Source: Thermodesulfovibrionales bacterium (GTDB lineage Bacteria; Nitrospirota; Thermodesulfovibrionia; Thermodesulfovibrionales; CALJEL01). From it: a stretch of 46,890 nucleotides of DNA. The notes beneath the pieces are model-generated. The model worked only from the letters and a program-made list of their open reading frames with translations, searched no databases and was not told the origin of the DNA. The stretch's first letter is position 1. Every line of letters starts with the position of its first letter. This document shows, piece by piece, positions 38,800-43,848 of this stretch. The DNA lies in NCBI GenBank assembly GCA_026417875.1, contig JAOACK010000010.1:1-46890 (forward strand). The letters are read 5' to 3'. The position numbers and the translations under genes are program-made.

Positions 38800-40893
38800 T
38801 CACTTTTTACTCAGAAGCCTTGAGGCATTCGCTGCTACAGCCAATGTTGGAAGTTCTTCAAGTGCTGCTGCCATAACAGGCTTTAGTATTCCCACTGATG
38901 CAAGTCCCATTGTTATTATGTCCCAGGTTATTCCAAGGGCAATCCCCTGCCTGATGACCTTATAAGTATTCCTTCCTATCTTTATAACCTCAGGAATCCT
39001 TGACCAGTCATCCCTCATAAGTGCTACTGGTGCTGCCTCAATAGCCACATCTGTGCCAGCAACGCCCATAGCAATACCAACATCTGCCTGTACAAGGGCT
39101 GGTGCATCATTAACACCATCTCCAATCATCAATACCCTGTAGCCTTCTGCCTGGAGCCTTTTCACTATCCCTATCTTGTCCTCTGGTAGAAGGTTTGCCC
39201 TGTACTCACTGATACCGAGCCTCAGACTTACTGACCTTGCAACCCTTTCATTGTCTCCTGTGAGGAGTAAAAATCTCTTTATCCCGAGTCCTTTAAGTTC
39301 TCTGATTGCCTCAGGAACCTCATCTCTTATAATATCTCCTACAGCAATGATGCCTGCAACCTTACTGTCCAGAGTCATATAAAGGACTGTGTTTCCTTCT
39401 TCCTCAAGCCTCTCTGCTGTACGGGATATCTCTTCTGGTATAAATATCCCTTTTTCTTTGAGGAGCCTCTCATTCCCAAGCAGAAGGACATTCTCCCTGA
39501 CTTTGGCAACTATACCCCTGCCAATAAAGTATTCAAAGCTCTCTGGAGGAGTAATATCTATACCATATCTCTTTGCCTCATCTATTATTGCTTTTGCAAC
39601 AGCATGATTTGAATATCCTTCCAGAGAGGCAGCCAGTCTCAGTATCTCTTCTTTCTTAAAGTTATTAAATGAGACAATCTCCCTTACAACAGGTCTTCCA
39701 AAGGTCACTGTACCTGTCTTGTCCATTACAATGCAGTCCACCTTTGCAAGGGCCTCAAGATAAAGCCCTCCTTTAATGAGAACACCCCTCTTTGCACTGC
39801 TTGCAACAGAAGCAACAACACTGAGAGGAGTAGCAAGCCCAACTGCACAGGGACAGGCAGCAACAATAACAGCAATCGCATAAATAGCCTTTCCCGATAT
39901 AAGGTAAGTTAAAAGGGCAGCCAGGAATGCTAAAGGTAAAAAATAAGCCGTAAACCTGTCGGCAAATCTTTGCACCGGTGCTTTATGGGCCTCTGCCTCC
40001 TCTACAAGCTTTATAATCTTTCCAAGTGTTGTATCCTTCCCAGTCCTTTCAGTCTTTATCTCAAGATAACCTGGACCATTTATTGTGCCTGCAAAGACCC
40101 TGTCACCAGGGGATTTTTCTACAGGTATGCTCTCACCTGTCACAGGTGATTGATCAACTGAGCTTAATCCCCTTATAACAATTCCATCAACAGGTATCTT
40201 TTCTCCCTGTCTCACTATTACAGTATCACCTGGTTTTATCTCATCTATCTTAACATCCACCTCTTTTTCACCAAGCCTTATCCTTGCCTTCTCCGGAGCG
40301 ATATCTATGAGGTCCTTTATAGCCTTTCTTGACCTTCTCAGTGTAAGGTCTTCAAGATAGTGGGCAAGGTTCATAAAAAAGGCAACAAGCATGGAGGCTG
40401 AATATTCTTTAATAGCCGCAGCACCAAGAATTCCGGCACTCATCATCAGATCAACATTAATCTGTCTCTTAAGGATACCAAGAAAAGCCCTTTTAAAAAT
40501 AGGATAGCCACCAAGGACAATAGCCAGAATTATAACTGGCAAAGGAATATAGCTGATACCTTTCTCAAGAAGGCCAAAGTACTGAAGTCCTAAGATACTA
40601 AGTCCTATGAGACCTGTAACTGTTATAAAGGCAAAACGAATCTTCTCAAAGAGTTCTTTTCCCGAACCTTTTATCTTTAATTCCTCTTCTCTTACACTGT
40701 AGCCCAGGCCCTTTATCTTCTCAATTAATCTCTCAGGACTGGTCACTTTCTCATCAAAGCTCACAACTGCCTTCTCTGAGGTTGTAATTATCTTTACATC
40801 CTTTACGCCAGAAGTATTTCTCAGGGTATCTCCTACCCTGACAGCACAATTGGCTCAACAGAGGCCTGGTATTTTTAATTCAATGGTCTCCAT
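38800..40893 (-). CDS. Heavy-metal P-type ATPase with selenocysteine HMA domain
   Basis: Inner-membrane metal pump of 697 residues when UGA codon 13 (40857-40855) is read as selenocysteine. Residues 1-70 then form a complete HMA domain whose metal motif reads P-G-L-C-U-A-N-C, with Sec in the place of the first Cys of GMxCxxC. Next come the membrane segments, actuator domain (PVTGESIPV), the metal-site [10 protein letters not shown] in TM6, phosphorylation motif [11 protein letters not shown], nucleotide domain (SNHAVAKAI with HP-like region), [10 protein letters not shown] and the final segments ([17 protein letters not shown]). The ATG at 40893 has GAGGAAGGA before it and lies two bases after the ArsR stop. 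Without recoding, translation could begin only at ATG 40764 and would leave half an HMA domain. Metal specificity is not clear (Zn/Cd/Pb or Cu). Confidence 0.87.
40821..40857 (-). promoter_or_regulatory. Putative bacterial SECIS element after UGA codon 13
   Basis: On the minus strand, 13 bases after the UGA (40857-40855), the perfect 8-bp stem TCAGGGTA / TACCCTGA (40841-40834 and 40828-40821) encloses the loop GGAGA (40833-40829). The first loop G is 22 bases after UGA, within the usual 16-37 base range for bacterial SECIS, which require a G in the first loop positions. Confidence 0.8.
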
Positions 40894-40895
40894 AA

Positions 40896-41258
40896 TTATC
40901 CTTCCTCCACATGCCTTAAACCTTCTTTAAAGAGATTCTTTATATGCTCATCATCCAGTGAATAAAAGACCATCTTTCCATCCTTTCTGTACTTAACCAG
41001 CCTCGTGGCCCTCAGTATCCTCAGCTGGTGGGAGACAGCAGACTTTGTTGTTCCAAGAAGATTTGCAATATCACATACGCAGAGCTCTTCCTCTGATAAG
41101 GCAAAGATTATCTTTATCCTCGTAGGATCTCCTAAAACCCTGAAGGTCTCAGCAAGCTGATGTAGCTTGGCATCGGGCTTCATCTTCCTTTTGACAGAAG
41201 ACACCTTCTTTCTGTCAATGAAGGCTATTTCGCAGATTTCTGTTCTGGTTCTTTTCAT
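40896..41258 (-). CDS. ArsR/CadC-type metal-responsive repressor
   Basis: Winged-helix repressor of 120 residues. It shows the alpha-3 metal motif EELCVCDIANLLG and the recognition segment KSAVSHQLRILRATRLVKYRKDGKMVFYSL. The N-terminal Cys in MKRTRTEICEIAF matches the thiolate ligand of CadC-type sensors of Cd, Pb or Zn. The start at 41258 is chosen because the upstream in-frame ATG at 41282 lies inside the operator palindrome. The stop is two bases before the P-type ATPase start, so the pair is one operon. Confidence 0.92.
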   Translation of the reverse strand: MKRTRTEICEIAFIDRKKVSSVKRKMKPDAKLHQLAETFRVLGDPTRIKIIFALSEEELCVCDIANLLGTTKSAVSHQLRILRATRLVKYRKDGKMVFYSLDDEHIKNLFKEGLRHVEEG

Positions 41259-41266
41259 ATTAATAG

Positions 41267-41282
41267 TTGAGCAATTGTTCAA
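41267..41282. promoter_or_regulatory. ArsR/SmtB-type operator palindrome
   Basis: TTGAGCAATTGTTCAA is a nearly perfect 16-base palindrome, close to the TGAACA-n-TGTTCA type of ArsR/SmtB operators. It covers the predicted transcript start of the repressor-ATPase operon. Confidence 0.7.
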
Positions 41283-41613: not shown

Positions 41614-43848
41614 TTAGCTTAATCCCAGCAACCTTCCACCCTGATAAATTACAAATGCCGTAATCCATGCAAGTGCTGTATGCATTAAGACCGCCTGCCC
41701 ATAAATTCTCCATGTGCCAAATTCCTGTTTTGTGGCAATGGCAACTACAACACAGGGCCAGTAAAGGAGGACAAAGGCAATAAAGGCATAGGCGCTCAAA
41801 GGAGTAAAGACCCCTTGAAGTGCCTGTCTTAAAGGCGACCTCTCTTCTTTTTCTTCCTCTGTCTCTTCAGAACTTAGACTCTTAATGCCTAATCCAGCAA
41901 AGACATTTAAAGCTGCATCCTTTGAGGCATTTATGAATGATAACCCTGCTTCTTTTAGGTCATCTGTAAAAGAGGGCTTCTGCTCTTCTGCCTCGTCGCT
42001 CCTCTTCTCTACATATATCTCTGACATTGTGCTAACAACAATCTCCTTTGCAATAAGTCCAGATATTAAAGATGAAGCTGCCTCCCAACTGCCAAAACCA
42101 AGAGGCTCAAATACAGGTGCTATTGCCTGACCAATCATACCAAGCACAGAATCTTTTTTATTTTCAACCCCCCATGGGATATTGAGCATGAACCATACTA
42201 GTATTGAAACTGCAAGGATATAGGTCCCTGCCTTCACAACAAAGTGCCTTAATTTCTGCCATGTATGGATCATTAGGTCTCTGAATGTTGGGATTCTATA
42301 AGGAGGAAGCTCCATTATAAACATAGGTGCTTCACCTTTAAACATGGTCTTTTTAAGGACAATACCAAGAAGTATTGCCATAGCTATACCAAGTACATAG
42401 ATTGACCATAAGATTGTTCCAGCATTTTGAGCAAAAAATGCACCAATAAACACTACATAAACTGGTAGTCTTGCACCGCATGACATAAGTGGCACGAGCA
42501 TCTCTGTTAGCCTTTTGTCCCTTTCGCTTTCCCGTCTCCTCTATGCATAAATAGCAGTGACATTGCATCCAAATCCTAAAAGCATAGGTATAAAGGACTT
42601 TCCATGAAGGCCGAGTGTATGCATAAGTCTGTCTATGACAAATGCTGCCCTAGCCATATAACCACTTCCTTCAAGGAATGTTATAAGGAGCATCATCATT
42701 CCAATGACAGGGACAAAGACAAGGACAAACCCTGCTCCTGCAATTATTCCATCTGTTGCGAGGGATACTATCCACTCTGGTGCATTAATAAATCCGAGCA
42801 GTGCCTCTGTCCATCTCTTAAAGGGACCAGAGATCATCACGTCTATCCAGTCAACAAATGGTGTAGATATATCAAAGGCTAACTTAAAGACAAACCACAT
42901 GGCAAAAAGGAATACCGGGATTCCTAAAAACCTGTTCAGGACAATGCGGTCAATCCTTTCTGTAAGGTCAATCTTTCTTATAGAAGGTTTCTTTAAGACC
43001 TCCCTGGTAAGGCCTGCAGCAAGGGCATACCTTTGATCAGCAAGTATTGATTCAATATCTTCATCATGGAAATTTTTAAGGTGAGATAGGGCCTCCTTTA
43101 TAAAGGCTGTGTTCTTAGGGATATCTAATTTTCTAAAAATATATTCATCACCTTCTATTATTTTCAATGAAAGCCATCTTAAAGGATATCTTTTAGAGAG
43201 CTCAGGGAAAAGATTTTTTAAACCCATCTTAATAATTAAGAAAGCAGATTCTATATCCTCTCCATAATTCAATGCTCTTGGTGCACTGAAGGGGCTACTA
43301 GCCTGTTCTATTACTGCCTCTATTAATTCCTTTAGTCCCTTTTTCTTTGTTGCCACTGTAGGTACAACTTTAATACCTAACATCTTCTCCATCGCCTCTT
43401 TATCTATCTTGTAACCCTTAGCCTCAGCCTCATCATAGATATTAAGAGCCATTACCATAGGTATGCCCAGTTCCATCAGCTGAATGGTAAGATAGAGATT
43501 TCTCTCAAGGTTTGTAGCATCAACAACATTAATAATAACATCAGGTCTTTCATTAATAAGATAATCCCTAGCAATTATCTCTTCCTGTGTATAGGGACTT
43601 AAGCTATATATTCCAGGCAGATCCACAAGGTTTATAATTCTACCATTGTATTGAAATTCTGCAGTCCTTTTTTCAACAGTCACACCAGGCCAGTTTCCAA
43701 CATAAAGCCTTGTGCCAGCTATTGCATTTATGAGTGTTGATTTGCCTGAATTTGGATTTCCTGCAACTGCGACTGTTATTGTCTTTTTGTCTGTTATCTT
43801 TCCTCTGTCTTCTGCTATTCTAATGCTCTGTTGATCTACTGTTCTCAT
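41614..43848 (-). CDS. feoB: Ferrous iron transporter FeoB with in-frame amber codon
   Basis: GTP-dependent Fe(II) importer. N-terminal G domain: [19 protein letters not shown] (P-loop), [31 protein letters not shown]. The membrane part follows with two Gate repeats, FEGSG-like [17 protein letters not shown] and GFGCNVTA...[14 protein letters not shown] at 42543-42541 interrupts the phrase [35 protein letters not shown] in the middle of the conserved first Gate. The frame is open on both sides, and the full length would be 744 residues, normal for FeoB. A restart at ATG 42501 would give a separate C-terminal half of 295 residues. feoA overlaps the start by four bases. Confidence 0.93.

Follow-up and report, generated by a model that had tools for sequence, protein, structure and literature searches.

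The gene at positions 38800..40893 (-) of the window, by which we mean the whole 46,890-nucleotide stretch of Thermodesulfovibrionales DNA analyzed here, very likely encodes a P1B-type heavy-metal ATPase of 697 amino acids in which an in-frame UGA, codon 13 (40855..40857, (-)), is decoded as selenocysteine (Sec), as judged from sequence evidence. The Sec would be the first ligand of a UxxC motif in the N-terminal heavy-metal-associated (HMA) domain. We favor Sec decoding because of the hairpin that follows the codon, its exact coincidence with a metal-ligand cysteine, and the independent presence of a UGA in the pumps of two further genomes, G049 and G293. An initial annotation of this DNA had proposed a Sec-containing metal pump, and the proposal has gained weight: the host genome carries the sel genes, the UGA aligns with Cys, and a related pump in two further species has a UGA as well.

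Gene structure and the N-terminal extension

Gene callers would likely start this gene at the GTG at 40762..40764 (-), as does the open reading frame list, in which the annotated-style frame spans 38800-40764 (-) and yields a product devoid of any CxxC or UxxC motif; the pump thereby shows how the N-terminus of such ATPases is lost to gene calling. The initial annotation had instead pointed to an upstream in-frame ATG just past arsR, with its own ribosome site and a single TGA as the only obstacle, at the first Cys of the HMA motif. Both points are borne out. The ATG at 40893 (-) lies 2 bases past the arsR stop and is preceded by GGAAGGA, and the sole in-frame stop between it and the true end of the gene at 38800 is the TGA at 40857-40855, set in the context G-L-C-U-A-N-C.

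The residues around the UGA were also said to complete an HMA domain, and profile search and predicted fold concur. The domain (PF00403; 40696..40878 (-), residues 6-66) is whole only when codon 13 is translated; scored with C in place of U, the Pfam match spans residues 6-65 and reaches 42 bits against a gathering cut-off of 24.8, and the GxxCxxC-type ligand pair is present. An AlphaFold model of the 76-residue HMA segment (mean pLDDT 87.6) has the order beta-alpha-beta-beta-alpha-beta and places residue 13 in the loop directly preceding helix 1. Foldseek searches with this model return, as best matches in the PDB, MerP (1osd), ATP7B, HMA7, and MNK1 (the HAH1-Cd(II)-MNK1 adduct), so that the modelled domain resembles the HMA domains of the CopZ/MerP type. 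The full-length AlphaFold model (three sequences; pLDDT 47) is poor except for the HMA and nucleotide-binding parts.

By their substitution pattern, the 43 codons upstream of GTG 40764 evolve as coding sequence: compared with the homologue L049, they give a dS of 0.85 and a dN of 0.29, with 11, 13, and 29 substitutions at codon positions 1, 2, and 3, and compared with L048, a dS of 0.94 and a dN of 0.30. This pattern speaks against the idea that the UGA is a nonsense mutation, leaving either a decaying gene or a shorter pump, initiated at GTG 40764 and missing the metal-binding motif, an outcome that we consider improbable. Such a shorter pump would have an AGAAGG 5 nt 5′ of its GTG and would not be out of place in a family whose N-terminal domains may be absent or degenerate, and other lesions do occur, namely, an in-frame TAG in the nearby FeoB and an apparent frameshift in selD. 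However, the alignment shows that the AGAAGG codes for residues conserved among homologues (TSEKAV), and a chance stop would have had to fall exactly on a metal-ligand Cys, ahead of a SECIS-grade hairpin matched by 0.3% of the UGAs in the window, and to have appeared independently at the matching codon of the G049 and G293 genes.

The hairpin downstream of the UGA

The candidate SECIS element, TCAGGGTA-GGAGA-TACCCTGA (40821..40841, (-)), is just as first described: a perfect 8-bp stem closed by the loop GGAGA, whose first G falls at base 22 downstream of the UGA. Published rules for bacterial SECIS elements call for a loop of 3-9 nt, a stem of 4-16 bp, a G within the first two loop bases, a distance of 16-37 nt from the UGA, and a minimum free energy of at most -7.5 kcal/mol (PMC13188914). 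Applied by script, these rules place the window hairpin within every limit, with a loop of 5 nt that opens on G, a stem of 8 bp, a spacing of 21 nt, and a core energy of -11.7 kcal/mol. Hairpins of this grade are rare in the window, where, over both strands and with the present case included, 7 of the 1960 TGA trinucleotides precede a perfect stem of 8 bp or more whose loop G is correctly spaced, and 6 (0.3%) precede a core as stable as -11.7 kcal/mol; 1.2% reach -7.5 kcal/mol. The whole 71-nt region folds with a z of -2.8, and none of 200 shuffles did as well. The hairpin is also more stable than those of selD (-7.4) and of two fdhA genes (-10.5 and -4.7) in the same genome. An Rfam scan of the window returned no match at the gathering score.

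Among the Cys homologues, comparable hairpins are mostly missing. The best that the three close ones (L048, L049, and L050) offer is -0.5 or none, and in eight from the second clade described below, none is stronger than -1.6; an exception is L019, whose hairpin of -5.2 lies at the extreme spacing of 37 nt and is comparable to those of G049 and G293. The window hairpin codes for V-G-D-T, where the homologues have Glu/Lys-rich helix residues (VGD versus VEK or IER), a replacement that would follow from a constraint of RNA structure on the protein.

These observations bear on whether the UGA might be a base-calling or assembly error for TGC or TGT at base 40855. The codon is one base away from both Cys codons, and the draft genome, in 179 contigs, contains other suspicious lesions (the FeoB TAG and the selD frameshift). 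Yet a base error would leave unexplained a hairpin that displaces the usual Glu/Lys-type residues and is missing from the close Cys homologues, and it would not account for a UGA at the same position in two other genomes; we therefore judge an error very improbable.

Selenocysteine machinery of the host

Sec decoding hinges, as the initial annotation stressed, on the sel genes being present in the same genome, and they are. The host genome (G000), a draft of 2.0 Mb in 179 contigs and 95% complete, contains selA (597 bits), selB (394.5 bits), tRNA-Sec (76 bits, anticodon UCA), and selD, the last scoring over its cut-off with a Sec codon and having its frame broken in the assembly. This selD (L015; G000 C28:6039-6969) has a Sec UGA at the usual site, a hairpin, and an apparent frameshift near C28:6737, which stems from an indel in the assembly or else from a recent lesion. 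Two fdhA genes (L103, G000 C24:5147-7150, and L105, on C17) likewise have an in-frame UGA, in ARLUHAPTV, each with a SECIS-like hairpin. Given the sel genes and the UGA–hairpin pairs of selD and both fdhA genes, the host very probably decodes UGA as Sec. Slight read-through is possible at any UGA, and low-level decoding by a near-cognate tRNA (Trp or other) could serve as a regulatory switch with no Sec involved; nothing specific favors such a switch, and the Cys position of the UGA, the full Sec machinery, and the SECIS-type hairpin make it exceedingly improbable.

One further lesion lies close by in the window. FeoB (41614-43848, (-)) carries an in-frame TAG at 42541-42543, where the congener G001 and another genome, G011, have intact copies of 69-70% identity; this TAG is either a nonsense mutation or a base error.

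Cysteine homologues and the upstream regulator

Three homologues, L048, L049, and L050, are 60-67% identical to the window pump (67% for L049 and 66% for L048 in full-length alignment) and align with it without gaps from the same ATG start, their motifs reading GLCCQSC, GLCCADC, and GLCCSDC; all three have Cys at the UGA position, as do L019-L021. Every close homologue has Cys where the window gene has the UGA, and the plain stop in close relatives that would have told against the initial reading is not seen. No close orthologue of the pump turned up in the congener G001, nor did any orthologue of the window gene that has the UGA, the UGA relatives belonging to another P1B clade; a pattern search in the surroundings of the L049 genome, which covered three genomes, gave no match. 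Stops in the P1B homologues L023, L095, and L096 were examined and are not Sec sites of the HMA motif.

Adjoining the pump on its 5′ side and read in the same direction is a gene for an ArsR/SmtB metalloregulator (40896..41282, (-)), whose product scores over the cut-off of NF033788 and matches Pfam HTH_5. Its ELCVCD site and N-terminal CEI motif are akin to those of CadC of cadmium resistance. An arsR gene also lies immediately 5′ of the L049 ATPase, and CadC-like arsR genes precede the putative Sec ATPases of G049 and G293 and several Cys homologues.

Recurrence in a second P1B clade

When the DNA pattern G[LMI]xU[AG]xC was searched in 396 genomes of the phylum, 13 places were found, three of which lie within the HMA domain of a P1B ATPase, namely, in the window, in G049 (L066:1920-4046), and in G293 (L067:2472-4646). 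The other ten lie outside any HMA frame and were taken as chance matches. A second, partly overlapping pattern, run on all 177 available genomes of the order, brought no further convincing case, the new matches being judged by the matched motif only.

G049 and G293 are two species of one genus (g35), which belongs to the same order as the window organism but to a different family. Their ATPases, of 708-724 residues, have the in-frame UGA at codon 12 of the HMA motif (GLSUANC and GLTUATC) and lie directly 3′ of the CadC-like arsR, while relatives in the same family, 64-71% identical, have the Cys forms GLTCASC or GLSCASC. With 34% identity to the window protein, these two ATPases belong to a different P1B clade. 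A maximum-likelihood tree requires two changes to account for the Sec forms, and in none of 200 bootstrap trees do the Sec rows group together, which points to two independent Cys/Sec exchanges in P1B ATPases of one order. At -5.5 and -2.9 kcal/mol, the hairpins of G049 and G293 are weak, and the core alone misses the published energy rule; an AGGC is placed at the loop by Gln-Ala codons where the nearest Cys homologues have Gln-Asp or Gln-Glu. The stems of the three hairpins are offset from one another by one or two bases. All three Sec-form genomes have a tRNA-Sec; in 4 of the 15 other genomes tested, none was detected, and those four have only Cys forms.

Pump class and metal specificity

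The pump scores 593.5 bits with TIGR01525 against a cut-off of 346.25, and its P1B motifs DKTGT and TGES and the helix-4 CPC are all found in the alignment, in keeping with membership of that family; Pfam recognizes HMA, E1-E2_ATPase, and Hydrolase. It also exceeds the cut-off of TIGR01512 (491 bits). The best match by sequence in the PDB is the CopA-type Cu(I) ATPase 3j09. In contrast to that type, however, the pump scores higher with TIGR01512 (Cd) than with TIGR01511 (Cu), and its regulator is ArsR-type rather than CueR or CopY. Since the Cd-type profile outscores the Cu-type one, the most probable function of the pump is to export Cd, Pb, Zn, or Hg.

With the ZntA/CadA-type Zn/Cd/Pb ATPases (P1B-2; 4umv), the pump shares the HMA domain and E1-E2 core, the helix-4 CPC, and the CadC-like regulator upstream. 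A Lys in helix 5 and a D-x-G in helix 6 mark the P1B-2 subclass. The G049 and G293 Sec ATPases (P0002 and P0003) retain the helix-5 Lys and have DVG in helix 6, whereas in the alignment, the window pump and its Cys orthologues (L048 and L049) lack this signature, with Asp where the Lys would be and LEELPT as the helix-6 sequence; the window pump further differs from the ZntA/CadA type in the Sec proposed for its first HMA Cys. Because the window group lacks both marks, the metal assignment of the pump is tentative, and the group may form a P1B subgroup of unassigned metal specificity.

Proposed mechanism

How might such a pump work? We envision that metal releases the ArsR repressor and that SelB brings Sec-tRNA to the hairpin, allowing codon 13 to be decoded as Sec. 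Together with C16 and possibly C12, the Sec13 selenolate would bind a soft metal ion of the Cd, Pb, Zn, or Hg class and help to load or regulate the pump, and the ion would be exported via the CPC site in membrane helix 4. When selenium is low, translation would halt at codon 13, and the full pump would therefore depend on the selenium supply.

In most known selenoproteins, Sec serves redox catalysis. From its position in the motif, it is a reasonable inference that the Sec13 selenolate is a metal ligand; nothing in these data points to the redox sensing that the initial annotation named as the other option. A wider proposition, to which we lend somewhat less than even credence, is that Sec acts here as a metal ligand and not as a redox catalyst, and that at least two Cys-to-Sec swaps at the first HMA ligand, in separate P1B clades of one order and each behind a CadC-like repressor, have tuned the soft-metal affinity of the pumps while tying their synthesis to selenium. 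A Sec at the metal-ligand position of a pump raises the question of selenolate use in metal binding, which can be put directly to the test with the close Sec/Cys pairs described above.

Relation to known selenoproteins

Sec-containing P1B ATPases (UxxC) are already known, though uncharacterized, and the window pump would be a further case. A "cation-transporting ATPase E1-E2, UxxC" is tabulated as a selenoprotein in three papers (PMC2398784; PMC9312934; PMC13188914), as one sequence in a marine survey (PMC2398784) and with the example accession ABB15669.1 in two reviews (PMC9312934; PMC13188914), one of which places it among transporters that are linked, for the most part, to metal resistance and whose roles, it says, call for study (PMC13188914). 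As compared by table entry, it and the window pump are both P1B-type with Sec in UxxC. What the present analysis adds is the operon context, the independent recurrence of the Cys/Sec swap, and a testable Sec/Cys pair. A more distant likeness is to the UxxU metal-binding (seleno)protein family NF041115, an HMA-like small domain that, as proposed for the window pump, has Sec at metal-ligand positions; the pump matches its profile weakly (38.6 bits against a cut-off of 95), and NF041115 is a stand-alone small protein with two Sec, as opposed to a single Sec within an ATPase.
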